DNA of 64,000 bases, from positions 1-64,000 of the forward strand of contig NZ_CP036269.1 of NCBI RefSeq assembly GCF_007744675.1, written 5' to 3'. The first letter of the stretch is position 1, and each line of letters begins with the position of its first letter. The position numbers and the translations under genes were made by a program. Below the pieces are notes generated by a model that did no database searches, was not told the DNA's origin, and was given only the letters and a program-made list of their open reading frames with translations. Of the stretch, positions 20,757 to 34,840 are shown one piece after another. The stretch comes from Gimesia alba. Its GTDB lineage: Bacteria; Planctomycetota; Planctomycetia; Planctomycetales; Planctomycetaceae.

Positions 20757-22790
20757 CTACTCAGATTGAGAGTCTCCTTGAACATCATGTTTCTCAAACC
20801 AGTCGAGAGTTCGTAGTAAGACGTCTTCGCGATGCGGCAGCTGTCTGATCGGATGGCCTTCATCGGGGTAGAGCACCATCTGCGTATCGACGTCCGTTTC
20901 TTTCAACGCGCGATAAAACATCTTACCCATCGCCACCGTGCAACGGCGGTCGTTGGTAGAGTGCAGAATCAGCGTCGGTGTCTTGACTTTGTGGGCGTAG
21001 GTCAGCGGGCTGTGCTTGCGCATCCGCTCGGGGACTTCCCAGGGATAGCCGCTCATATCGTATTCCGTCCAGCTCTGCAGATCGCTTAAGTGCCACATCA
21101 CGTTGAGATCGGTTACCGCGTTTTGCGCGACCGCGGCCCGGAACTGATGTGTCTGCCCCACGAGCCAACTCGTCATGTAACCGCCGTAACTGACGCCATA
21201 TACAAACTGCCGTTTCGGATCAGCGATGCCCTGTTTTACCAGGTAGTCGACTCCTGTGAGAATGTCTTGCATATCGCCGCCACCGAAGTCATTCCGGTCG
21301 GCATTGAGAAAATTCAAGCCGTAACCGGTCGAACCGCGAAAGTTCGGCTGGAAGACGGCATAACCCCGGGTGGCGAAAAACTGCGTCGTAAAACCGTAGC
21401 CGCTCCCCGCGCGATGATGCGGCCCGCCGTGAGGCATCACCAGCAGCTTATACGGTGGCTTCGCGACCGAAGCGGGTGGTGTGGTCACGACGCCTTCGAT
21501 TTCCAGACCATCGAAACTCTTCCAGTGAATCACAGCCACGTCCCCGCGCAGCCGCTTGCCGATCTGCGGGTTGCTGGCCGGCAGTAGAGGACTCCGTCTG
21601 GGAGCCGGCGGGTACTCGACCTCGATTGCTTCGGGACCGGCATCCAGATTCACCGCCTGCCGCACCGTTTTCAGACCTTGCAGGGAGTTGAATGTCACAC
21701 GCGAATTATCGAGCCAGCACGTTTCAGAGAGCGTATATTCCGGCGAACCGTGCGGCGGCTTGCCGTTATAAGGCTGATGAAAATCAAACAGCACCCGCGA
21801 CGTTGCTCCGTTCTCGTTGAGTTCCACGACCGTCAGATTATACACATCCCGGTGCGGTCCCTTATAACGGGGCGAACTCAGACAGACCAGCCGTTTCCCG
21901 TCGGGCGAAATCCGCGGCGAAAACTCGGGCCCCGGCCCCTTCGTCAACTGTGTCAGCCTGTTATCGTTCAGAGTGATTTTCCAGAGATCGTAATTGTGAT
22001 TGATGCTGTAACGGACCGACTCCTGCTCGGGCGTTCGATTGGCGTGCACGACGACGAACGAACCATCGGGCGACCACTGCGGATCGCCGTACCAGAAATC
22101 GCCGGGTGTGATACGGGTGATAGATTTCGCGGCCACGTTCCCTGGTTCAGCAAGCAAATCCGCTACCCAGACCTGTGTGGGACCATAGCCTTCATAACCT
22201 TCGCCCTGATCTTCCCGCACGATCAGCACGTTGTTGCGGCGTTCCTGTTCGGTGCGGGGATCTTTGCCTTCATCGGCGACGAACATCAGCCGTTTCCCGT
22301 CTGGCGAAAAACAGACGCGGCCATAAAACCGATCCGTAATCACCCGCCCATACGGTTTCCCGGGACCAGCCAGTGGAACAGCCGTGCCCCCTGCAGTCGG
22401 AATCAACCAGATGTCTGCGGCCGTATCAGTATAAGGCGGAACTGGCGCGAATGCAGGCGTCCCATCAGGAAACGGCCGGGTCGAAAGAAACAGAATCCAT
22501 TTTCCATCGGGAGAAAGCTGCAGCCCAAACGCATCCGGCTCCCCCGCTTCCAGCGCCCGCGGCTCCTGTCCCTGATCCACACGCCAGAGAGACCGCTTCA
22601 GCGAACGCGTTTTGGGATCGACGCGCTGTCGCACGTAAACGACACTTTTGCCCTCATCAAGCGTGATCGGCTCCAGCGCCACATCAGTCAGATACAGATC
22701 TCCCACCTGAGGCGGAATCAGCTCCTCGGCAACAGCAGCCTGAACCATCACCAGCAAGCAGAGAAAAACGATTCCAGATAAACGAACCAT
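20757..22790 (-). CDS. Secreted S9-family serine peptidase
   Basis: 677 aa. Signal peptide: VFLCLLVMVQAAVAEE. Residues about 30-400 form a WD40-like beta-propeller with repeated LSPDGKW, FSPDGKR, WSPDGSF and ISPDGKR motifs, as in dipeptidyl aminopeptidase/acylaminoacyl peptidases. The C-terminal alpha/beta hydrolase has the nucleophile in GVSYGGYM (Ser near 533), Asp in STNDRRC (near 613) and His in DEGHPIRQ (near 643). The catalytic triad is complete. It probably degrades peptides in the periplasm. It diverges from the 827-aa propeller gene. Confidence 0.92.
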   Translation of the reverse strand: MVRLSGIVFLCLLVMVQAAVAEELIPPQVGDLYLTDVALEPITLDEGKSVVYVRQRVDPKTRSLKRSLWRVDQGQEPRALEAGEPDAFGLQLSPDGKWILFLSTRPFPDGTPAFAPVPPYTDTAADIWLIPTAGGTAVPLAGPGKPYGRVITDRFYGRVCFSPDGKRLMFVADEGKDPRTEQERRNNVLIVREDQGEGYEGYGPTQVWVADLLAEPGNVAAKSITRITPGDFWYGDPQWSPDGSFVVVHANRTPEQESVRYSINHNYDLWKITLNDNRLTQLTKGPGPEFSPRISPDGKRLVCLSSPRYKGPHRDVYNLTVVELNENGATSRVLFDFHQPYNGKPPHGSPEYTLSETCWLDNSRVTFNSLQGLKTVRQAVNLDAGPEAIEVEYPPAPRRSPLLPASNPQIGKRLRGDVAVIHWKSFDGLEIEGVVTTPPASVAKPPYKLLVMPHGGPHHRAGSGYGFTTQFFATRGYAVFQPNFRGSTGYGLNFLNADRNDFGGGDMQDILTGVDYLVKQGIADPKRQFVYGVSYGGYMTSWLVGQTHQFRAAVAQNAVTDLNVMWHLSDLQSWTEYDMSGYPWEVPERMRKHSPLTYAHKVKTPTLILHSTNDRRCTVAMGKMFYRALKETDVDTQMVLYPDEGHPIRQLPHREDVLLRTLDWFEKHDVQGDSQSE

Positions 22791-23056
22791 AACGAGTCTC
22801 CCAGGAAGGCATCAGTAAAAACAGAGTGCACTTTCCATGCTATCCAGCCCGAATTCGAATCACAACAGAAACCACACACTCAAAGAAAACAACAATAGAA
22901 CATGAACGCTCCGACTTGCCTCCTAACGAGAAATCCGCGAGGTGGTGAGAAAATCGAAGAATGATCACGGAAATCGAAAATCAAACATGGTAGAATTCAA
23001 GTGATGGCACATCTGAAAAATATAACGCTTACATCGTCCGGTCAGTGAGGCAATCC

Positions 23057-25540
23057 ATGTTCGCAAAAATCATGCACATGAATTTCGGTCCCGAGGTTTT
23101 CAGCAAAGTCATCGTCTGTCTGTTGTTGTTTTGCCTGACAAAACCAGCTCCCGCGATCGAAGCGCAGAAACCGGAAATCAGTCTGGCTGACCGAATCCAA
23201 CAGGAAAACAAAATTCACCGTGAAGAGTTTTACGGCGATGTCAAATTACTGCATGCGCCTTATCCAATTGATGTCCAGTTTTCTGCTGATGGTTCTGTTC
23301 TGTTTTCCTTAGCAGAAACGGTACGGCTTTGGCGAAGTGATACAGGAGCGTATTTAGGAAGTATCGCTGGCCCTGTCCGATTCGATGATTTTGCGCAACT
23401 CAACAATTCTCGCTGGATTGTCACACTTGATGATTCAGAAAATGTTTGGGAACGCGGTTTGTATTCTGGAATTCCTCAATATCTCCCCAGACTAAGAATC
23501 TGGGACGTGATCACTGGAGCCTGTCTGGGAGTCCGTAAACTAGAATTTCCAGGGGATGCCAAGACATTATCAATTTCAACGATAGAAACCGCAGAGCAGT
23601 CTCAGACGACTTACCTCTTGTTAGAAACTCATTTGGAGCGCTCTAAGTCCGATGAAGGCCGGCAGTGGGGCTGGACTCGCTGTCAATTACTGGGCTTTCA
23701 GGGCCCAAGCCTGATTCCCTCATGCCAGCTTGAATTAGAAGACTTTCAGATCAGATTAGAATCCCCGAAAGATTCCTTAACTTGGGATCCCCACACCAGA
23801 CAGCTTTACATCTTCGGAGAGTACCATATATCGTGTTTTGATCCAGTATCCAAGACAATCTTAAGAACGATCGTTCTTAAAGATTTTATGAATCAAAAGA
23901 AATCCATTGATGAACTGTTCGTTATCGATCAGCCATTTCATGGCAATACAGGCTTACCTGGAAAGAATCAACCTACTAGTACGATCCTTGTGACATTTGA
24001 TCCCAGTCGAGAAGAGAATCTTCAAGGTCGAGAAAAATCGACATTACCGCAATGGGCATTAATCGATTCTCTTTCAGGTAAGTTAATTAAAAGTGGGGTC
24101 GTTAACACCCATTTAAAACCGATCAACAAGCAGCTGAAAAATAATAAAGAAGAACTCATTCACTGGCTTTATGACGACCGTCATTATTCTATTAAAGCCA
24201 TCAATCTGCTCAAGAACCAGACTCTACTGAGAATCCCTTGGATCATAGACGATTTTGCTACCAGATCACGATACCAATTAACGTATGATGATTGGCATTT
24301 AAACCGGGATGATTCCAGAGACATTAATCAAAAAATCGCATACAGCCAGTCGGCCAATCGTGTTTGTATCATTGGAGGTGTGTTGGAAGAAATCTTTCTC
24401 TACGACTCACAAACCGGGAAACGAGTCACACCAGAAACTGGCATGGTGAATGACCTCTCACCAATTTCGGCAAATAAATTTTCTGGCTCTTTCGACTATC
24501 ACGACGCATCCGTGTTTCAATTGAAAGCGCGTGATCAGATTCGTCGTACTTTTAATACGGAAGTGCCTGAGAATTCTTGTGTAGCGATTTCTGCGGATGC
24601 AAAACGAATAGTCGTAGGCGAAACTTCTGGAAAAGCGACAGTATGGAACCTTTCCAATCACAAAAAACTCTTCACACTGACAGGTGTGTCAAACGAACTG
24701 CTGTGTATTGCGGCAGACACGTCTCAAAATCGAATCGTTGCTGGTGATAGTAATGGAGTCTTCTGGCGATGGAATTACCCCACTCCATTAAAGGCAACTC
24801 CTGAAAAAGTTCAACGGCTCATCGCAGAACGAAATGGGAAACAAACGAAATCACATTTTCCGGAAAAACGATCAAAAGAAAAATTAACGAACTCGCTTTG
24901 TGCACTCTCTCCCGATGGTTTATGTTCTTTGTGCTTTCAACCAATAGAGGAAAAAATGGCTTCCCCACTATTTTCCCAAGATGGAGAGAATTTACTCCCA
25001 GTTCCAGGTATCGCTTTAGTTGTAAAGCTACAGAATGAACAGAAATTTGGAGAAGTGATTGCGACAGAAAACGCAAAAAAGCAAACCATACTGACGCCTG
25101 CGGTCCATACGAAGTCGGTATTGATACAGATTAAAAACTCAACAAGCGGTCGCTTCGCTTTATTTGTGTTTAATACAGGGCAAGTAACGATTGTCGACTC
25201 ACAAACAGGAATCCTCGAGTCCATCATCCAGACCGGCAATCGCGAAATTGTCGACGTCGACTTTCACCCTGACCAGAAAACGCTTTTAGTCGCCTCGTAT
25301 CGAGGGGCCGTTAAAGCCTGGAATACAGATACTTATTTGAAAACCGGCTCGCTGCAACTGTATGACGCGCGGTTGAATCAGATAAGTTCATGTGTTGCCG
25401 AACAAGGTTTTGATCTGGTAATAGGAACACGGGATACCGGCCTGATCGTCAAACGAGGCGTCTTTCCAAAGTCAGCACAACAACCAGAGCGACCGGCGGC
25501 ACTCAACCTGCCCTTTGGTGGCCCGCTTCCGGAAGATTGA
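23057..25540 (+). CDS. Large secreted WD40-like repeat protein
   Basis: 827 aa from ATG 23057, chosen because GAGG lies 6 nt upstream; GTG 23045 is the first possible codon. Hydrophobic FSKVIVCLLLFCLTKPAPAI near the N-terminus is a signal peptide. The body has degenerate WD-type blades: VQFSADGSVLFSLAETVRLW near residue 65, VAISADAKRIVVGETSGKA near 510, VDFHPDQKTLLVASYRGAVKAW near 735. The blades are best preserved in the last 320 residues. No catalytic motif is visible. It may be an exported scaffold or binding protein. It ends in a Pro-rich tail. Confidence 0.75.
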   Translation: MFAKIMHMNFGPEVFSKVIVCLLLFCLTKPAPAIEAQKPEISLADRIQQENKIHREEFYGDVKLLHAPYPIDVQFSADGSVLFSLAETVRLWRSDTGAYLGSIAGPVRFDDFAQLNNSRWIVTLDDSENVWERGLYSGIPQYLPRLRIWDVITGACLGVRKLEFPGDAKTLSISTIETAEQSQTTYLLLETHLERSKSDEGRQWGWTRCQLLGFQGPSLIPSCQLELEDFQIRLESPKDSLTWDPHTRQLYIFGEYHISCFDPVSKTILRTIVLKDFMNQKKSIDELFVIDQPFHGNTGLPGKNQPTSTILVTFDPSREENLQGREKSTLPQWALIDSLSGKLIKSGVVNTHLKPINKQLKNNKEELIHWLYDDRHYSIKAINLLKNQTLLRIPWIIDDFATRSRYQLTYDDWHLNRDDSRDINQKIAYSQSANRVCIIGGVLEEIFLYDSQTGKRVTPETGMVNDLSPISANKFSGSFDYHDASVFQLKARDQIRRTFNTEVPENSCVAISADAKRIVVGETSGKATVWNLSNHKKLFTLTGVSNELLCIAADTSQNRIVAGDSNGVFWRWNYPTPLKATPEKVQRLIAERNGKQTKSHFPEKRSKEKLTNSLCALSPDGLCSLCFQPIEEKMASPLFSQDGENLLPVPGIALVVKLQNEQKFGEVIATENAKKQTILTPAVHTKSVLIQIKNSTSGRFALFVFNTGQVTIVDSQTGILESIIQTGNREIVDVDFHPDQKTLLVASYRGAVKAWNTDTYLKTGSLQLYDARLNQISSCVAEQGFDLVIGTRDTGLIVKRGVFPKSAQQPERPAALNLPFGGPLPED

Positions 25541-25705
25541 ATTAGCTTCCGTTTGAGAAGAAGATACGATGATGTAAAACCACTTTTCCGTCTTTGTTAC
25601 ATTGTCCTCAAAGATCGGAACGAGCTTGGTGTACTTTCCGTGTCGATTTAGAGCTCTGTTTCTGGTAACGTAATTAGTGCGCTTTTTAACCAGAAATGAA
25701 AGACA

Positions 25706-26638
25706 ATGACGCTCCTCTATTCTGATCCCATTTTTCTGAAATATGAAACGGGTCACCAGCCTGAGAATCCGGCGCGGATTCTTCCCGCCGTGCATCGGGT
25801 GAATCAGATCGCCATGCATGCCGGTTGTCCTCGGAGATCGTGGAACGAGGTGACAGATTCGCGTCTGGAGCGCGTTCATGCGCGTGAGTACATCGACTTC
25901 GTTAAAACGTTTTCTCTCAAAGGGGGCGGCTTCATTGCCGATGATACGGTGGTTGGTCCCCAATCGTATCACGTTGCCCGCATGGCTGTGGGTGCTGTCT
26001 GTGATGCGGTAGAGCAGGTGATTCAAGGCATTGATGAGCGGGCCTTCTGTCTGGTGCGGCCGCCCGGCCATCATGCGACCGCCGATGCGGCGCTGGGATT
26101 CTGCCTGTTTAATAACGTGGCCGTGGGCGCGCGACTGGCGATTGAAGAGCTGGGGCTGGAGCGCGTTATGATTGTCGACTGGGATGTCCATCATGGAGAC
26201 GGGACGCAGGAGATCTTCTGGGAAGACGGGCAGGTTGGTTTCTTGTCGATTCATCGTGCGTCGTTTTGTGATGAAACGGGAACCGCCGCCGAAACGGGGG
26301 CGGGCGCGGGGCTGGGAACGACCGTCAATGTACCGGTGGAATTCGGTACGTCCCGGGAAGACTATCTTGCGATGTTCAAATCTGCCGTGGAAGGATTGGC
26401 AGAGAAGATCAGGCCACAACTGGTTTTGATCAGTGCCGGCTTTGACAGTCATAAAGATGACCCGATCGGTTCGCTCGGGTTGGAGAGCGAAGATTTCGGG
26501 TGTCTGACCCGGATTGTGCTGGATGTCGCAGCCGTGCATGCCGGCGGTCGTGTGGTCAGCGCGCTGGAAGGGGGATATAATCCTCTTGCGCTGGCTGAGA
26601 GTATCGAACATCATTTACTGGAGCTGACGGCGGCTTGA
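25706..26638 (+). CDS. Histone deacetylase/AcuC-family zinc deacetylase
   Basis: 310 aa, class II-like HDAC fold. The tandem active-site His pair is in RPPGHHATADAALGFCLFNN (His122, His123). Zinc ligands are in VDWDVHHGDGTQ (Asp160, His162) and SAGFDSHKDDP (Asp near 248). The catalytic Tyr motif LEGGYN is near residue 290. All key residues are present, so it should be active on acetyl-lysine or small acetylated amines. It is followed 48 bp downstream by a Pat-like acetyltransferase fusion on the same strand, as acuC lies near acuA in Bacillus. This supports a protein-lysine deacetylase role by context. Confidence 0.9.
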   Translation: MTLLYSDPIFLKYETGHQPENPARILPAVHRVNQIAMHAGCPRRSWNEVTDSRLERVHAREYIDFVKTFSLKGGGFIADDTVVGPQSYHVARMAVGAVCDAVEQVIQGIDERAFCLVRPPGHHATADAALGFCLFNNVAVGARLAIEELGLERVMIVDWDVHHGDGTQEIFWEDGQVGFLSIHRASFCDETGTAAETGAGAGLGTTVNVPVEFGTSREDYLAMFKSAVEGLAEKIRPQLVLISAGFDSHKDDPIGSLGLESEDFGCLTRIVLDVAAVHAGGRVVSALEGGYNPLALAESIEHHLLELTAA

Positions 26639-26686
26639 ATCGGCCGAGAGGGCCGGAGCTGGAACTCCGATCAGAGGCGAATCAAC

Positions 26687-29377
26687 ATGCCCATTCGAAA
26701 CCTCGAAAAAATATTTCACCCCCGGAAGATCGCAGTCATCGGTGCCAGTTCGCGTCCGCTGAGTGTGGGACAGACCGTTTTTCAGAATCTGCTCTTAGGC
26801 GGGTTTGAGGGTGCCGTCTATCCCGTGAATCCCAAGTATGACAGGCTGGACGAACACGTCTGTTATCCCCGTGTGACGGACGTGCCGGAAACCGTCGACC
26901 TGGCGGTGATTTGTACCCCCGCGCGCACGATTCCCGAAATCATGCAACAATGCGGCGCAGCAGGCATCCGGGGAATTGTGATCTTGTCGGCCGGTTTTCG
27001 TGAATCTGGTTCGGCAGGCAAAGAGTTGGAACAGCAGGTACTGAAGATCGCCAGAACGTTCCCCGGTCTGCGGATTGTCGGGCCAAACTGTCTGGGGGTG
27101 ATGGCCCCGTATGCTAAATTGAACGCCAGCTTTGCCTCGGATATGCCGTTGTCAGGGAATATTGCCTTTATCTCTCAGTCGGGTGCGCTGTGCACTTCGG
27201 TGCTGGATTGGTCGCTGCAGGAAAAGATTGGCTTTTCGCACTTTGTTTCGGTGGGGAATATGCTCGATGTGGGCATTGCCGACCTGATCGACTACTTCGC
27301 GCTGGATCATCACACGACGGCCATCATTCTGTATGTCGAGTCGATCACGGAAGCACGGCAATTCATGTCGGCAGCGCGGGCCTTCACAAAAAAGAAACCA
27401 ATCATCGCGTACAAGGCGGGTCGCTTTACGGAATCTGCCAAAGCGGCTGCTTCACATACAGGGGCCATGGCGGGAGTCGACGCCGTGTATGAAGCGGCGT
27501 TTGCACGGGCGGGTGTGGTACGCGTCTTTGAGCTTGATGATTTATTTGAATGTGCCGAGTTGCTCGCGCGGCAGAAATGTCCCAAAGGTGATCGTCTGGC
27601 GATTGTAACCAACGCCGGCGGTCCGGGCGTGATGGCCACCGATGCGTTGCTGGCCCGGCAGGGTGTGCTGGCCGCGTTTTCTGAGGAGACGATTGAGAAA
27701 CTGAACGCCGTACTGCCCAGTGCGTGGTCGCATGGAAATCCGCTGGATCTTCTGGGAGATGCCCCACCAGAGCGGTTTGGCAAAGCGGTTGAGATTGTGC
27801 TCGCCGATCCGCAAGTGGATGGCCTGCTTGTGATCCTGTCGCCGCAGGCAATGACCGATCCACCTGGGGCCGCCACGGCGGTGATCGAAGCGGCTCGTTC
27901 GACACAAAAGCCCGTGCTCACAGCCTGGATGGGAGGCGAGAAAGTCCGTGCGGGAATTGAACGTTTTAACAACGCCGGCATCCCCACTTATACCTCACCA
28001 GAGCAAGCCGTCCGCGCGTTTATGTATCTGGTTTCCTACGCGCGGAATCGGGAGTTCCTTTATGAAACCCCGCACCCCATGCCCGTTGATGATTCCATTG
28101 ATCGTGCCGGGATACGCGCCCTGTTTGATGCGGCGCTCACAGAGGGGCAGGAGATCCTGCCTGAGAGCACATCCAAAAAAATGCTGGCAGCGTATGGAAT
28201 TCCCATCACAAAAACAGAGGTCGCACGCACCGCCGACGCAGCGGTGGCTTTCGCGCAGGAGATGGGGCAACCCGTTGTGCTCAAAGTCTATTCAGAGCAG
28301 ATCACGCACAAGACAGACGTGGGTGGCGTCGAGCTGGACCTTACGAATGAAACAGAAATTCGCGCTGCCTTCGAGCGGATTTTGAGTCGTGTTAAAGAAA
28401 AACGTCCTGATGCGCAGGTCGAAGGCGTGACCGTACAACCGATGGTATCAGACTCAGAAGGCCACGAGCTGATCGTCGGGGCGAAACGGGATCCCGTGTT
28501 TGGGATGGTCCTGCTGGTGGGGGCAGGGGGGACTGCTGCGGAATTATATCAGGACCGTGCACTGGTGTTGCCACCCCTCAATGAACGGCAGGCACGCGGG
28601 GCTCTGGAGTCGCTGCGTTCCTGGCCCCTCTTAGAGGGATACCGAGGCCATCCTGCTGTCAAAATTGAGCAACTGATCGAATTCCTGATTCGGCTCTCGT
28701 ATTTTGTTTCTGATTTTCCCGAGATTGTCGAACTGGATGTCAATCCGCTGCTCGCCACGCCTGAGAAGGTGATTGCCCTGGATGCCCGGATTGTGATCGA
28801 TCAGGCAAATTCGAAACAACCGCTGCGTCCGTATTCGCATCTGGCGATTCGCCCGTATCCGGAAGAATTTATTAAAAGCGTGACGCTCAAAGACGGGACC
28901 GCGGTACTGCTGCGCCCGATCAAACCCGAAGACGAATTGATGTGGCATGATCTGTTGGGAAAATGTTCGTCGGCATCCATTCACGCGCGGTTTCGTTACT
29001 CATTTCAGGCAACCACCCACGACATGGCAACGCGGTTCTGTTTTGTCGATTATGACCGCGAGATTGCGATTGTCGCAGAAATCACAAAACAGGATCAGCG
29101 TCAGCTGATCGGCGTGGGAAGACTCGTTGCCGACGTCGACCATCGCGAAGCCGAGTATGCGGTTCTGGTGGCAGATCAATGGCATGGCTTCGGGCTGGGC
29201 ACGTTCCTGACGGATCACTGTCTGGAGGTCTGCCGCGAGTGGGGCATCCAGCGCGTCGTTGCAGAAACGGCACCGGATAACCATATCATGCTGGACATGT
29301 TCCGAAAGCGGAAATTCCAAAAAGACGCCTCAGCTCAGACGGATAGTGTGCTGCTGGTAAAGGAACTGACAAAATAA
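26687..29377 (+). CDS. ADP-forming acyl-CoA synthetase-GNAT fusion (Pat-type)
   Basis: 896 aa. Domains in order: CoA-binding Rossmann (about 10-105, KIAVIGASSRPLSVGQ); succinyl-CoA-ligase-like domains (about 150-450, with FISQSGALCTSV and ASHTGAMAG); ATP-grasp (about 490-705, with KKMLAAYGIP and VGGVELDL); and C-terminal GNAT acetyltransferase (about 735-885, with the acetyl-CoA loop DQWHGFGLGTFL). This is the architecture of bacterial Pat/PatZ, which acetylates metabolic enzymes. His257 in SHTGA corresponds to the phosphorylated His of active ADP-forming synthetases, so the ligase half may still work. AGAGG precedes the ATG. It lies 48 bp after the deacetylase gene, probably in one operon. 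Confidence 0.9.
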   Translation: MPIRNLEKIFHPRKIAVIGASSRPLSVGQTVFQNLLLGGFEGAVYPVNPKYDRLDEHVCYPRVTDVPETVDLAVICTPARTIPEIMQQCGAAGIRGIVILSAGFRESGSAGKELEQQVLKIARTFPGLRIVGPNCLGVMAPYAKLNASFASDMPLSGNIAFISQSGALCTSVLDWSLQEKIGFSHFVSVGNMLDVGIADLIDYFALDHHTTAIILYVESITEARQFMSAARAFTKKKPIIAYKAGRFTESAKAAASHTGAMAGVDAVYEAAFARAGVVRVFELDDLFECAELLARQKCPKGDRLAIVTNAGGPGVMATDALLARQGVLAAFSEETIEKLNAVLPSAWSHGNPLDLLGDAPPERFGKAVEIVLADPQVDGLLVILSPQAMTDPPGAATAVIEAARSTQKPVLTAWMGGEKVRAGIERFNNAGIPTYTSPEQAVRAFMYLVSYARNREFLYETPHPMPVDDSIDRAGIRALFDAALTEGQEILPESTSKKMLAAYGIPITKTEVARTADAAVAFAQEMGQPVVLKVYSEQITHKTDVGGVELDLTNETEIRAAFERILSRVKEKRPDAQVEGVTVQPMVSDSEGHELIVGAKRDPVFGMVLLVGAGGTAAELYQDRALVLPPLNERQARGALESLRSWPLLEGYRGHPAVKIEQLIEFLIRLSYFVSDFPEIVELDVNPLLATPEKVIALDARIVIDQANSKQPLRPYSHLAIRPYPEEFIKSVTLKDGTAVLLRPIKPEDELMWHDLLGKCSSASIHARFRYSFQATTHDMATRFCFVDYDREIAIVAEITKQDQRQLIGVGRLVADVDHREAEYAVLVADQWHGFGLGTFLTDHCLEVCREWGIQRVVAETAPDNHIMLDMFRKRKFQKDASAQTDSVLLVKELTK

Positions 29378-29425
29378 AAAGCGCAATCACTCTCTTGATT
29401 GCAATCACAGTATGCAGGATTTCAG

Positions 29426-29690
29426 ATGATCTTCCGACTCTCACATACATTGAACCAGAAAATTAAAACCGGCAAGCTTACGGCATTGCCGTTGCATCAG
29501 AGCCCTTTTGGTGATTGGTCTTGCCATCTTTTTTATGGCAATCGTAGTCCGTACATTCTTCTTTGTAACTCAAAATCGCTTTACTCCTGTGTGATGCCCG
29601 GCAACTAGCGTTTCGAAAATTCATCGCCCCTGAAAGAAACTCGGTTCAGTTTGCGAAAACCTTGAATCGTTCCGTGACGGGTTGTATGAA
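29426..29690 (+). pseudogene. Broken DUF6933-like gene with internal deletion and frameshift
   Basis: Frame 1 from ATG 29426 reads MIFRLSHTLNQKIKTG, then LPLHQSPFGDWSCHLFYGNR and NSKSLYSCVM, and stops at 29608. From 29611 a different frame reads FRKFIAPERNSVQFAKTLNR followed by SVTGCMNQ. Together these match, from memory, the start and the late-middle of a family of about 160 aa (DUF6933, with a typical NRSVTGSMND). The 40-50 residues that should lie between are missing, and the C-terminus is cut where the GIY-YIG frame begins. I read this as a decayed gene; the family name is my recollection. Confidence 0.6.
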
Positions 29691-29954
29691 TCAGCAGGAG
29701 AATCCACTAACTGGTTTGTCTACATCCTTCGATGTGTCGATGGTTCGTTCTACACAGGTATCACAACAGACTTGGTCCGAAGATGTGAGCAGCACAACGC
29801 GGGAACAGGAGCACGCTATACGCGCAGTCGGCTTCTTGTTAGCATTGTGTATCACGAAATGCAGACTACCCGCAGTTCAGCATTAAAACTTGAATTGGCG
29901 ATAAAGGCACTGTTGCGAACAGAAAAAGAAACGCTCATCGAATCGATAATTTGA
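29682..29954 (+). CDS. GIY-YIG domain protein (UPF0213/YhbQ-like)
   Basis: 90 aa. The single-domain GIY-YIG nuclease fold shows WFVYILRCVDGSFYTGITTD (residues 11-30), the conserved Arg and His-Asn in LVRRCEQHNAGTGARYTR, and the closing LELAIKALLRTEKETLI. The frame has no ATG; TTG 29682 is the best start, and it remains open back to 29634. The start overlaps the remnant of the DUF6933-like gene, so the original 5' end may have been lost or replaced. Proteins of this class are small structure-specific nucleases of uncertain role. Confidence 0.8.
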   Translation: MYESAGESTNWFVYILRCVDGSFYTGITTDLVRRCEQHNAGTGARYTRSRLLVSIVYHEMQTTRSSALKLELAIKALLRTEKETLIESII

Positions 29955-30046
29955 ATTAGCACATCGCCACAAAAATCGTTAACATTGAGTCATATTCAAA
30001 TTTCCCAAAGGGTTTTTCTTTCACAGAATCAACCAGGAGTCGAACC

Positions 30047-30430
30047 ATGAAGTGGACTTGCACCGTTGCTTTGCTTGCGCTGATGACATCCATCAGTTTT
30101 GCTGTGGATCATACTAAAGATTCTCCTGCGATGATTAAAATGAATATCGAAAGCAAAAAGGCCGTTCTTGTGGATGTCAGAGAACAAAGCGAATGGAATA
30201 ATGGACATATCAAAGGGGCCATTTTTCTGCCGTTAAGCAGCTTGCGGGATGGTGTCTCGAAAGCAGAACAAAAGCAGTTGCCTAAAGGGAAAATTATTTA
30301 TCTTCACTGTGCTGCCGGCTTTCGGGCAAAAGTCGCCGCAGATCTGCTAAAAAAACACAACGACAAAATTCAACCCGTCAAACAAGGATACGATGAACTG
30401 CTTGATGCCGGTTTTCAAAAAGCAAAATGA
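30047..30430 (+). CDS. Exported single-domain rhodanese
   Basis: 127 aa, ATG preceded by AGGAG (8 nt). The signal peptide is TVALLALMTSISFA, with cleavage near FA-V19. The rhodanese domain has VLVDVREQSEWNNGHIKGAI (residues 40-59) and the active-site loop LHCAAGFRA with catalytic Cys88, ending in GYDELLDAGF. It transfers sulfur (or binds thiols) in the periplasm. It shares an ATGA overlap with a downstream two-helix protein frame (30427), suggesting co-translation. Confidence 0.9.
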   Translation: MKWTCTVALLALMTSISFAVDHTKDSPAMIKMNIESKKAVLVDVREQSEWNNGHIKGAIFLPLSSLRDGVSKAEQKQLPKGKIIYLHCAAGFRAKVAADLLKKHNDKIQPVKQGYDELLDAGFQKAK

Positions 30431-30483
30431 TCTCCTGGCATCAGAATTTTATTTTCGCGATGTCGCAAATAGAGAGCTGTTAC

Positions 30484-30816
30484 ATGACAACGAAAATAAA
30501 AATTATTGCAATTTTGACTTCTGCTCTGCTCTGTCTCGTTGTGCTATTTCCGCCGCGAATTATCGGTACGACAATGATAAGATCCGTTTCGCGCGGATTT
30601 TTATTGGGTGATGTATACCACACCAAGATTCCGAGTGGATATCGATCAAACGGTAAGGGCCATCATGTCACGACTTTTTCCATCTCTTCTTGTCGGATCG
30701 ACGTGACCCGAATGATTATGGAAATGATCGTCGTAATTTCGGCAGCCACGGCGTTTGCGTTGTGTTTGAATCTGCGTTCGGGCAAACCGTCGGAGAATAG
30801 TGAAGGATCCGAATAG
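30484..30816 (+). CDS. Small two-helix membrane protein
   Basis: 110 aa from ATG 30484; the frame can also start at ATG 30427, which overlaps the rhodanese stop as ATGA. TTKIKIIAILTSALLCLVVLF is an N-terminal helix, and MIMEMIVVISAATAFALCLNL forms a second one near residue 90; the loop between holds a basic stretch (RSNGKGHHV). No family was recognised. The inner start gives a normal membrane protein N-terminus, the outer one gives coupling to the rhodanese. Same-strand spacing suggests an operon with it. Confidence 0.6.
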   Translation: MTTKIKIIAILTSALLCLVVLFPPRIIGTTMIRSVSRGFLLGDVYHTKIPSGYRSNGKGHHVTTFSISSCRIDVTRMIMEMIVVISAATAFALCLNLRSGKPSENSEGSE

Positions 30817-30867
30817 CGACCTCAATTCAAGGTCTTCACTTAATAAAAAACCTTTCTGGAAACAGCA

Positions 30868-31860
30868 ATGTCTATCAAATTCCAATGCAAAAAATGCGGC
30901 AAAAATTATAAAGTCAGCGATGACAAAGCGGGTAAAAAAATCAAGTGTCGTGAATGCGCTGCGCCCGTGAAGATACCAGAGTTAGAGGTAGATGACTTTA
31001 ACGAAGATTGGGAGGAAGAGGACGAAGATACTCCGCCACCGCCACGGCGTCGTGCCAAGAGTGTGAGTAAAAAGAAGTCTAAATCGAAAGCCAGGAAAAA
31101 ATCATCATCTGGTTCGAATCAGGGTTTATTGATTGTGGGTTGCGTTGTTGGTGTCATGATTATGGGAGGAGTAGGTTATTTTCTGTTCTCTTCTGGTAAA
31201 CCGGGAGGAGGGTTGGCAAAGTCCATCGCCGACAAAGTAGACTCTGTGACAAATTCTACTGGTCAGGCTGAGACGGTTTCGGATGTCGAGAATATGAAAA
31301 AGATAGGCCGGGCCTTTCATGATTTTCATGATTCCTTCACGCGTTTTCCTCCTGCAGACGCGCATCTTGTAGATGGAAAACCGCTCTTAAGCTGGCGCGT
31401 CCATATGCTGCCCTTTCTTGGTCAGGCGGAACTTTACAAAGAATTCAACTTGCAAGAACCCTGGGACAGCCCGCAGAACAAAGCACTACTCGAGAAGATG
31501 CCTGCTGTTTTCAAGTGTGAAGGAGTCAGTCAGCCTGGCTCTACTTCGATCATGACCTTTTCCGGTGATGGGACTCCTTTTAAAGGCGGCCAAGGTCCCC
31601 GATTGCGGAAATTCACAGACGGCTCATCCAACACGATTCTCGTTGTTTTAGCAGGTCCCGACAAAGCGGTTCCCTGGACTCAACCGATTGATATTCCCTT
31701 GAATGCTTCCAACCCAATCAGTGCATTAGGACAAGCTCCTAGAGGCGCCTTTCTCTGTACGATGGCAGATGGTTCGCTTAAAAAAATCTCCGTGGGAATT
31801 TCCCCGCAAATACTCAAAAATGCCATCCAGATGGATGATGGAAATCCATCACCTCTATAA
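30868..31860 (+). CDS. DUF1559-type protein with N-terminal zinc ribbon
   Basis: 330 aa. Residues 1-36 are an MJ0042-like zinc ribbon (FQCKKCGKNYKVSDDKAG, then CREC; Cys7, 10, 27, 30). An acidic then Lys/Arg/Ser-rich linker follows, then one transmembrane helix GLLIVGCVVGVMIMGGVGYFLF (about 86-107). The outer part (about 135-330) is a DUF1559-like domain with LLSWRVHMLPFLGQAELYKEF and FTDGSSNTILVV, and a C-terminal LCTMADGSLKKIS. DUF1559 proteins are greatly expanded in planctomycetes. The zinc ribbon and basic linker should lie in the cytoplasm. Function is unknown. Confidence 0.88.
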   Translation: MSIKFQCKKCGKNYKVSDDKAGKKIKCRECAAPVKIPELEVDDFNEDWEEEDEDTPPPPRRRAKSVSKKKSKSKARKKSSSGSNQGLLIVGCVVGVMIMGGVGYFLFSSGKPGGGLAKSIADKVDSVTNSTGQAETVSDVENMKKIGRAFHDFHDSFTRFPPADAHLVDGKPLLSWRVHMLPFLGQAELYKEFNLQEPWDSPQNKALLEKMPAVFKCEGVSQPGSTSIMTFSGDGTPFKGGQGPRLRKFTDGSSNTILVVLAGPDKAVPWTQPIDIPLNASNPISALGQAPRGAFLCTMADGSLKKISVGISPQILKNAIQMDDGNPSPL

Positions 31861-31956
31861 CCAGTTCAAAAAAGTAGAAAAAACGCCGTACCTCTGTTAA
31901 AAGAAATCTGGTACACGTACGACAAAGCAGAAGCGGCCTTAATCAATGACCACGTT

Positions 31957-33279
31957 TCAGATCAATTCGGTAATCAATTCCCGGCGTTCCAGAATATAAC
32001 GGGGTCTGCCGCTATGATCCGGGAACGTTGTGGCAGGGTCGATGCCCAGATGGCGATACAGCATTGCCAGCACATTTTCGGGACGATAGGGGGCGTCTGC
32101 CGGCGTGCCACCCTGGTCATCGGAAGCCCCAATCACCTGACCGGTTTTGATTCCGCCCCCCGCCAGGGCGACGCTCATCACGCGTCCCCAATGGTCGCGA
32201 CCGGCAGTCCGATTGAATTTCGGTGTCCGGCCAAATTCGCCCATCGCTACGACCATCACTTGTTTGTCGAGACCACGTTCATGCAGGTCTTCCACGAGCG
32301 CCGCAAACGCACGGTCATAAGGGATGCCCTTGTCCCGCATGCGTTTGACCAGATCGCGATGATCGTCCCAACTGGGTCCGGTCACGCGCACGGAAGCCAC
32401 AGTCACACCATGTTCCACCAGCCTGCGTGCGAGCAGGATATTCTGGCCAAAGGCAGTCCTTCCATAGCGATCGCGCGTTTTCGGATCTTCCTGGGAGAGA
32501 TCAAAGGCATTGCGGGCAGAATCACCCGACACCATCTCGAACGCTTCTTTCGTGTATTGATCGATGGCGTCGCCGATGCCGTTGTTGTCTATAATTTCGC
32601 GAGTCGCATCAAAGCCCTTCAGCAGAGCCTTGCGGTCCTGCAGACGCTCTGCTGTCAGTCCGCGTAACAGAGTAAGGTTGGGAACCGTAAAGTTTTTGGC
32701 ATCCGCATCGCGGGCGGTGATGAAGGGATTATACCCCTTACCCAGCCAGGCGGCTCGACCATAACGCATATCGCGTGGCAAAGAGACATACGCGGGAATG
32801 CCGTCTGCATTACTCCCACGGACTTTGGATGTAATACAGCCGATGCTCGGCATCTCGTTTTCTCTGTTCTGGCGATCGCGCAGGTAATATCCGGTTTGGG
32901 TCAAGTGGCTGCTGGTGCCATGGCTGCCGGAATCGTGATGAATCGAACGAATGATCGCCATTTTATCGAGCACCCGCGCCTGCTCTTTCATGAACTCGCT
33001 AAACTGCACTCCCGGGACGGCGGTGCTGATCGGACTGAGCGGCCCCCGGTATTCGGAAGGCGCGTGCGGTTTCGGATCATAAGTTTCATGCTGTGCCGGC
33101 CCACCCGCCAGTTCCAGAAAGATAATGGCCGTGTCCTGCTTGGAACGTCCCCCTTCCGCAGCGTGTGCCTTCAGGCGGAGAATCTCGGGGAGAGAGAGGC
33201 CCATTAAGCCGGTCAGACCCGCTTTCACAACGGACCGTCGGGAGATGCCATCACAAAATTCTGCAGTGTGTCGAGACAT
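31957..33279 (-). CDS. DUF1501 protein with Tat signal (1)
   Basis: 440 aa, sulfatase/alkaline-phosphatase-fold family DUF1501. The twin-arginine signal is GISRRSVVKAGLTGLMGLSL, with cleavage near AHA-AE. Family motifs: IFLELAGGPAQHETYDPKP, IRSIHHDSGSHGTSSHLTQTGY, VAMGEFGRTPKFNRTAGRDHWG. This is a typical planctomycete exported protein of unknown activity. These genes usually sit beside a DUF1549/DUF1553 cytochrome-type partner; none is adjacent here. Two diverged 24-bp repeats lie 90-150 bp upstream of its start. Confidence 0.92.
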   Translation of the reverse strand: MSRHTAEFCDGISRRSVVKAGLTGLMGLSLPEILRLKAHAAEGGRSKQDTAIIFLELAGGPAQHETYDPKPHAPSEYRGPLSPISTAVPGVQFSEFMKEQARVLDKMAIIRSIHHDSGSHGTSSHLTQTGYYLRDRQNRENEMPSIGCITSKVRGSNADGIPAYVSLPRDMRYGRAAWLGKGYNPFITARDADAKNFTVPNLTLLRGLTAERLQDRKALLKGFDATREIIDNNGIGDAIDQYTKEAFEMVSGDSARNAFDLSQEDPKTRDRYGRTAFGQNILLARRLVEHGVTVASVRVTGPSWDDHRDLVKRMRDKGIPYDRAFAALVEDLHERGLDKQVMVVAMGEFGRTPKFNRTAGRDHWGRVMSVALAGGGIKTGQVIGASDDQGGTPADAPYRPENVLAMLYRHLGIDPATTFPDHSGRPRYILERRELITELI

Positions 33280-33622
33280 TCCTGCTCCTTTCCCTGGGGA
33301 GTGTGGCGGGATTGATTCGGGGTCAGCAATCAGTGCCTGTCGGTGGGAGAATTATAGATCTATGTTTATCAATATATCGAAATCGGGACTTCATATCAAC
33401 ACTTGTTAATATATCTAAGGCGGGATTGCCTGTCTAAATTGAGCCAGAAACCGCTACAGGCCTGAATAGTTCGTTATTTTAACATCACTGAACACGTTGA
33501 TTACCCGACGATGATTCTCCATTTTTACTCCGTCTGATGCTGGGATGAGGAACGAGTACTACAATAATCCGAATAAGAATTCGACAATCTATAAGACGCT
33601 GATAATCAGCAGGTGAACAGAG
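33280..33622. other. Intergenic region with a tandem 24-bp motif
   Basis: 343 bp between the sialidase 3' end and the DUF1501 start, both on minus. It contains the repeat pair at 33367-33427, otherwise nothing recognised. Confidence 0.5.
33367..33427. repeat. Two imperfect 24-bp direct repeats upstream of DUF1501
   Basis: 33367-33390 and 33404-33427 share the core AATATATC followed five bases later by CGGGA; 18 of 24 positions match. Their centre-to-centre spacing is 37 bp. The placement upstream of the DUF1501 start would suit a regulator binding as two dimers, but this is a guess. Confidence 0.45.
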
Positions 33623-34807
33623 TCAGGCATAAAACTGATCGACCTGATAAATCCTTAGCGTGACTTCGGAATCCCGTTTCCATTTCGTGGAACGCGAGTA
33701 ATACGCGATCAATGCTTCATCGCCGACGAAGGTTAGCGACGGATAGGCGGCATCCACTGTTGTACGGTTTTCGATATCTTTGAAATGGGTCCAGGTCGCT
33801 CCTTCGTCTTTTGAGATCGCCGCCGTCAAAGGCGTGCGCGGCCAGTTGGTGGGAGAGGCCACGTTATTCCACAACAGGAGTAGATCGCCCGTTTGCGGAA
33901 TGCGCTTGACGATGGCCGGGGATTCGGGTGCCGGCAGCTTGGTCGGTTCGGGCGTACTCCAATGTGCGCCGCCGTCTTGGGAAATACTTTGATAAATCCG
34001 CTCGTTCGTGTTCCGCAACAGGCAGAGCAGCCGACCATCTTTCAATTCAACAATCGTTGGTTCATGACAGCCGCGCCCTTTGGCCGTCATGCTGTTCGCA
34101 CTCCGTTTCCAGGTGCGGAAGCCGTCGTCTGAATAAAAAACGAAGGAATGCAACGCGCCCCCCTTGTACGCGGTGCCCCCAATATACTGTTTCGCATACG
34201 GTCCGTGTGCCGGCAGGATGATGCGGCCCGTGCTCAGTCGCAGCGCCCGATCGGCGTTGCAGCAATACCAGCCCGGCTCGGAAACCTGCCGCTGTTCCCC
34301 CCACGTCAGGCCGTTATCCGTCGAACGCCTGAGGTAGACGTTTCGCTGCCTCTGATCGTCCCAGCCGACGTAAAAGAACAGAATTTCTTTGTCGGAAAGC
34401 CGCACCAGATTGGGATGCTTCACATTCTGCTTCCATTCATTCGGCTGAAGTACCCGCCGGTTGCCCCACGTTCGTCCCCGATCGCTGGAAATCATCGACG
34501 TGATCTGGCAGGCGACATGATCGCCGATACCCGAGTGTCCTTTCTTCTGAGCCGGCTGCTTTGACTGACTGTAATATTCCGACCAGACCAGCATCAGCCG
34601 ATTCTCGTCCAGCGGAAGAATCAATTGATGATCATGGCGCGGATGCTGCGGAGACCAGGGACAGACGATCTGATCATGCACCGGTTTCAACAAAGGACGC
34701 TTTCCGCCAATGGATTCCCCTTTGGCCAGCAGTAATGAAGCTGGGGACATCCCACTCAGCGAGAGTGCCAGTGAGGACTTTAAAAACGAGCGACGTGGAA
34801 GTTGCAT
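33623..34807 (-). CDS. Exported BNR-repeat sialidase-like protein
   Basis: 394 aa. Tat-type signal: PRRSFLKSSLALSLSGM. Five Asp-box (BNR) motifs mark a six-bladed propeller: SSDRGRTWG, STDNGLTWG, SDDGFRTW, SQDGGAHWS, SKDEGATW. Family members include exo-alpha-sialidases; an FGRR-like or FRIP motif was not obvious, so sialic acid specificity is not proven. It is the last gene of the glycan-related minus-strand cluster and is 33 bp after the PQQ-like propeller gene. Confidence 0.88.
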   Translation of the reverse strand: MQLPRRSFLKSSLALSLSGMSPASLLLAKGESIGGKRPLLKPVHDQIVCPWSPQHPRHDHQLILPLDENRLMLVWSEYYSQSKQPAQKKGHSGIGDHVACQITSMISSDRGRTWGNRRVLQPNEWKQNVKHPNLVRLSDKEILFFYVGWDDQRQRNVYLRRSTDNGLTWGEQRQVSEPGWYCCNADRALRLSTGRIILPAHGPYAKQYIGGTAYKGGALHSFVFYSDDGFRTWKRSANSMTAKGRGCHEPTIVELKDGRLLCLLRNTNERIYQSISQDGGAHWSTPEPTKLPAPESPAIVKRIPQTGDLLLLWNNVASPTNWPRTPLTAAISKDEGATWTHFKDIENRTTVDAAYPSLTFVGDEALIAYYSRSTKWKRDSEVTLRIYQVDQFYA

Positions 34808-34840
34808 GGTGATAAAACCTTTTTTGAAATAATTGTGTCG

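Follow-up and report, generated by a model that had tools for sequence, protein, structure and literature searches.

In bacteria other than the one considered here, Pat and AcuA acetylate acetyl-CoA synthetase (Acs) in the region of its lysine motif PKTRSGK, and in Bacillus subtilis acsA adjoins acuABC. AcuA sets the acetyl mark of B. subtilis Acs and AcuC removes it (PMC11910552, PMC11255334); AcuC of both B. subtilis and Staphylococcus aureus is a class I deacetylase (PMC8556138). Characterised Pat enzymes join synthetase domains to a GNAT domain, and the synthetase domains of this architecture are described as inactive (PMC8556138). In Nmar_0206, an ADP-forming acyl-CoA synthetase (ACD), H535 takes a phosphate from ATP and then passes it to H256 of a swinging loop (PMC11494057).

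The window, a stretch of 64,000 nucleotides from the complete 7.77 Mb genome of Gimesia alba, carries a deacetylase gene and a Pat-type fusion gene one after the other on the same strand (Table 1). The preliminary description placed them 48 bp apart, and the coordinates of the open reading frames agree. Promoter-like and terminator-like sites are no more frequent in the region than in shuffled sequence, and no terminator-like site falls in the gap. The RNA of the 48-bp gap shows no unusual fold and gives no sign of an RNA element. Comparison with the closest relative, G378, gives dN/dS of about 0.12 for the deacetylase and about 0.08 for the fusion, so both genes are under purifying selection. 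Their third-position G+C is like that of the older neighbouring gene at 20757-22790; that of the genes directly beside them is lower. A search for plasmid carriage returned short, weak matches only. In G378 the same flanks enclose neither of two blocks present here, 22820-25604 (WD-repeat protein) and 29380-34837 (GIY-YIG, rhodanese, a 330-aa protein, DUF1501-like and sialidase-like), so the pair stands between two gains or losses. The WD, GIY-YIG and rhodanese genes of these blocks have 43-45% G+C, against 56-57% for the pair.

Table 1. Features of the deacetylase and Pat-type fusion locus (positions in the window)
Feature	Position	Strand	Details or basis
Deacetylase gene, class II-type Zn-dependent (HDAH/HDAC6-like), predicted	25706..26638	+	310 aa; H122/H123, D158, D160/H162/D247, Y291
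Intergenic gap, 48 bp	26639..26686	+	no terminator-like site; GAGG element 5' of the fusion start codon
Pat-type fusion gene, 896 aa (ACD alpha-like, ATP-grasp and GNAT domains)	26687..29377	+	Pfam, model
CoA-binding/CoA-ligase part of fusion, with E218 and predicted phospho-acceptor H257	26687..28081	+	Pfam, alignment
His257 codon (swinging-loop phospho-histidine)	27455..27457	+	equivalent of Nmar_0206 H256
ATP-grasp part of fusion, with H541 and D684	28124..28804	+	Pfam, alignment
GNAT acetyltransferase domain of fusion, with E823	28814..29377	+	Pfam, alignment

The sequence of the upstream product identifies it as a predicted class II Zn-dependent deacetylase, with the zinc ligands, histidine pair, tyrosine and class II relationship all present. 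PF00850 spans residues 19-305 (290 bits, Pfam). The active-site residues and zinc ligands assigned by homology to HDAC6 and HDAC8 are invariant in an alignment of 16 sequences, and with all seven located the earlier statement that the HDAC gene has every active-site residue is correct. HDAC10, a polyamine deacetylase, carries a Glu gatekeeper seven residues past its last Zn-ligand Asp, where HDAC6 CD2 has Leu; the residue at that position here is Ile254, which speaks against a polyamine deacetylase of the HDAC10 type. Among solved sequences, HDAC6 and bacterial HDAH come closest, and the folds matched by the AlphaFold model (pLDDT 93) are those of Pseudomonas aeruginosa HDAH, Acinetobacter baumannii Kdac1, HDAC6 and HDAC7. 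No class I chain occurs among the best 60 matches by sequence or the best 50 by fold; all are class II, HDAH, amidohydrolase or unclassified lysine-deacylase chains. Since AcuC is class I (PMC8556138), this ranking speaks against an AcuC orthologue, and the label 'AcuC-type' previously given to the gene is not supported. The genome encodes a second deacetylase of the HDAC family, at 4.99 Mb and 54% identical, and one sirtuin.

The downstream product contains the Pfam domains CoA_binding_2, Succ_CoA_lig (190 bits), Ligase_CoA_2, ATP-grasp_5 (285 bits) and GNAT, which confirm the ACD-ATP-grasp-GNAT fusion first described from the sequence; their order (CoA-binding, CoA-ligase, ATP-grasp, GNAT) is that of Pat. 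The score against TIGR02717 is 565, just under the cut-off of 567. The model of the fusion (pLDDT 88) superposes on the whole length of E. coli PatZ (TM 0.90, 36% identity) and its ligase part superposes on Nmar_0206. The GNAT domain is similar to that of Streptomyces lividans PatA, solved together with the Acs C-terminal domain (4u5y), and E823 aligns with the Glu of E. coli Pat and S. lividans PatA, so that the GNAT catalytic glutamate is present.

The fusion was compared, on its Pfam domains, their order and the PatZ fold, with Type I (class I-alpha) Pat-like KATs as defined from PMC6456759. It departs from them in the ligase site. Residue 257 of the fusion is exactly the histidine of SHTGA, and H257 and H541 are the equivalents of Nmar_0206 H256 and H535. 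E. coli Pat has the ATP-grasp histidine and lacks an H257 equivalent (a four-residue gap and other residues stand there), in line with the original contrast to enterobacterial Pat. Besides H257, the ligase-site residues E218, H541 and D684 and the GNAT residue E823, which had gone unlisted, are also present; the fusion thus has the two phospho-histidines of an ACD with their Glu and Asp partners (rows L024, L025, L028 and L032, on the wrong strand or in the wrong frame, were left out of this comparison). The loop 247-255 ahead of H257 has pLDDT < 50 in the model, which fits a mobile loop. With H257 kept, the ligase site is complete.

The same residues were surveyed in 86 relatives, which come from planctomycetes, Aminicenantes and Beijerinckiaceae. 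Each of the histidines H257 and H541 occurs in 86/86, and E218 in 85/86; the D684 position holds Asp in 81, Glu in 4 and a gap in 1. Loss of the catalytic His, by which the synthetase half of Pat is held to be inactive (PMC8556138), is therefore found neither here nor in any of the 86, which makes the fusion a variant of the Pat-like KATs and not a plain member. The kept His257 is a true feature of this fusion and no peculiarity of this gene; judged by alignment, an intact H257 is the rule for the whole fusion group. At the GNAT glutamate position 81 rows have a residue (73 Glu, 5 Asp and 3 others), and the other five rows have none. Column identity averages 0.66 and 0.63 over the two ligase parts, against 0.53 over the GNAT part, a value slightly depressed by the five gapped rows. 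Together, column identities and residue counts indicate that conservation of the ligase half is no weaker than that of the transferase half.

Four of the five rows without the GNAT residue are proteins of 714-740 aa, ACD without GNAT by Pfam. These (L180, L181, L183 and L184) are close relatives, about 50% identical, that keep the ligase residues, with Glu for D684 in two. That they do so suggests that the ligase half of the fusion is probably active. In the fifth row, G508 (L127:5305-8006), the fusion gene is broken into two ORFs of 648 and 273 aa that overlap, with an intact deacetylase alongside; the break is a frameshift or sequencing error. The Aminicenantes fusions (L094, L095 and L096) are about 55% identical and group in the tree with G124, a genome of the planctomycete phylum, possibly through transfer between phyla. 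A literature search found no paper describing an intact-His fusion of this kind.

The deacetylase and the fusion form what comparison of genomes identifies as a real conserved two-gene unit. Ten of 13 sampled genomes of the genus have the fusion, and in each the deacetylase lies directly upstream; in the other three (G048, G069, G227) no fusion was detected and only the other deacetylase is present. A Gimesia MAG (L093, 83% protein identity) has the same arrangement, giving 11 Gimesia-group loci, as does G502, a genome of another genus. Synteny in relatives, proposed at the outset as a check, bears out the unit: these loci keep the pair while most flanks differ, and reversed and convergent arrangements occur elsewhere. 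Flanking genes are common within sub-groups only (the window and G378; G181, G238 and G508; G374 and G514), which leaves the two genes themselves as the conserved part. None of the acs, WD-repeat, GIY-YIG or rhodanese genes travels with the pair, and G378 lacks both flanking blocks, which rules out a wider conserved operon of these genes. The sulfatase adjoining the G181 pair has its counterpart here at 5.94 Mb, far from the pair.

The reverse order, Pat-then-HDAC, occurs at three loci (G024, G342 and the second pair of G496), where the called ORFs range from overlapping by 26 bp to lying 46 bp apart. G496 (L126:4683-8341 and L104) has both orders in one genome. Convergent pairs lie within 200 bp in G516 and G507 and at 2.3 kb in G340. 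In G332 (L142:3973-7672) the fusion overlaps, tail to tail, a distant PF00850 gene whose product is 26% identical to the deacetylase at 25706-26638. In the deacetylase tree the Pat-then-HDAC clade (99/99) is separate from the HDAC-then-Pat clade of the Gimesia genus (100/100), G502 falling near the latter in an unresolved group; the fusions of these same-strand pairs also split by order, and unpaired fusions fall between them (quick method). We read the trees as two or three independent pairing events; one old pair, many times lost since, is conceivable. An adjacent deacetylase is absent for most planctomycete fusion genes, which makes the pairing optional and not obligatory. Absence is less certain than presence in these counts, as the whole-genome search for the long fusion protein scored no more than three candidates per genome, and some loci stop at contig ends, where a neighbouring deacetylase could be missed.

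One AMP-forming Acs in the genome scores above the curated cut-off. Its gene lies at 191-193 kb, unlinked to the pair, and the protein keeps the PKTRSGK motif. By analogy with the described systems, this single Acs would be the likely target of the pair, with K635 as the expected site. An acetate kinase gene is also present, so besides Acs the cell may activate acetate by a route other than the ligase half of the fusion. No acuA, acuB or adjacent acsA was found at the locus, which is accordingly not an acuABC system. The literature search found no paper on lysine acetylation in planctomycetes.

We propose, with a probability of roughly 0.55, that the two genes encode a writer and an eraser for reversible lysine acetylation, the writer being a Pat whose ACD half probably still works as an ADP-forming ligase. 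The GNAT domain would use acetyl-CoA to acetylate target lysines, most likely K635, the catalytic lysine of Acs, switching Acs off; the neighbouring class II-type Zn deacetylase would strip the acetyl mark independently of NAD+. The ACD half would bind CoA or acyl-CoA and may interconvert acetate (or another short acid), ATP and CoA with acyl-CoA, ADP and Pi via phospho-H541 and phospho-H257. As the genes stay together across related genomes, the pair is likely to act as an on/off switch for acetate metabolism. That the logic of AcuA and AcuC would be carried out here by a writer of the Pat type and an eraser of class II is, by analogy, the best-supported reading. In its favour are the conserved pair, the complete ligase residues, the whole-length PatZ match, the PKTRSGK motif of Acs and the PatA-like GNAT domain. 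Against it, pairing is not obligatory, acs lies apart from the pair, conserved residues are no proof of catalysis, and the sirtuin and the second HDAC could do the deacetylation.

Alternatively, the fusion could be a Pat of enterobacterial type only, its ACD half sensing CoA or acyl-CoA without ligase turnover in a plain Acs acetylation switch. The PatZ fold along the whole length, and the inactive synthetase domains described for characterised Pat enzymes of the same architecture (PMC8556138), would fit; we consider it unlikely, because no known ligase residue is missing, both histidines occur in 86/86 relatives, those without GNAT included, and the H257 equivalent is missing from the E. coli protein. 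Quite unlikely, too, is the opposite emphasis, a mainly metabolic ADP-forming acyl-CoA ligase whose GNAT domain would acetylate the ligase itself or a small molecule, with a deacetylase that controls the ligase or hydrolyses an amide metabolite. In its favour, conservation of the ligase residues equals or exceeds that of the GNAT glutamate, some relatives have no GNAT domain, and small amides are the substrates of several enzymes of the HDAC fold, among them dimethoate and propanil hydrolases; but most fusions have the GNAT glutamate (73 Glu and 5 Asp of 81), the domain is similar to that of the Acs-acetylating PatA, and Ile254 replaces the Glu gatekeeper of HDAC10.

That the two genes are neighbours through chance or shared inheritance, without joint function, would accord with most fusion genes of the class having no adjacent deacetylase. 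The pair, however, is kept amid changing flanks, and it recurs in reversed and convergent arrangements with deacetylases from separate clades. Given 2-3 deacetylase genes in each genome, chance would produce about 0.04-0.1 adjacencies in such a sample, and the probability of at least three independent adjacencies is about 1e-5 to 2e-4 (at least two, about 1e-3 to 6e-3). We consider it very improbable that the neighbours lack a joint function. The proposed writer-eraser pair may be extended, as a tentative idea, to a self-contained acetyl cycle in which the deacetylase would free acetate from protein lysine, the ligase half turn this acetate back into acetyl-CoA and the GNAT half return the acetyl group to protein. 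If true, one bifunctional enzyme would make lysine acetylation respond directly to the status of ATP and acetate, and a lysine acetyltransferase would produce its own acetyl donor.

The fusion resembles enterobacterial Pat/PatZ/YfiQ (type I, class I-alpha lysine acetyltransferase) in domain order, length, fold and GNAT glutamate, and differs in keeping H257, missing in E. coli Pat, and in having a class II Zn deacetylase encoded next to it. While the synthetase half of Pat is usually described as dead, here a large Pat-like fusion group has the ligase site intact (86/86 relatives), which suggests that the regulatory domain of enterobacterial Pat descended from an active ligase. With ACDs (Ca. 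Korarchaeum ACD1 and the 4-hydroxybutyryl-CoA synthetase Nmar_0206) it has in common the CoA-binding, ligase and ATP-grasp domains, both phospho-histidines, the Glu and the Asp; the C-terminal GNAT domain sets it apart, and it becomes testable whether acetyl-CoA synthesis and protein acetylation can reside in a single protein. The deacetylase is like the bacterial class II HDACs P. aeruginosa HDAH and A. baumannii Kdac1 in fold and active site, but only about 31-36% identical to them, and is paired here with a Pat-type fusion; some Pat-like fusions have a Zn deacetylase gene as their genetic partner, and the arrangement of the two varies. As in Bacillus acuABC/acsA, a writer and a Zn-dependent eraser are encoded together, with Acs a plausible common target; here, however, the writer is a Pat-type fusion and not AcuA, and the eraser is of class II and not the class I AcuC. 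The pair thus poses the testable question of an NAD-independent acetylation switch in planctomycetes, built from parts other than those of Bacillus acuABC.
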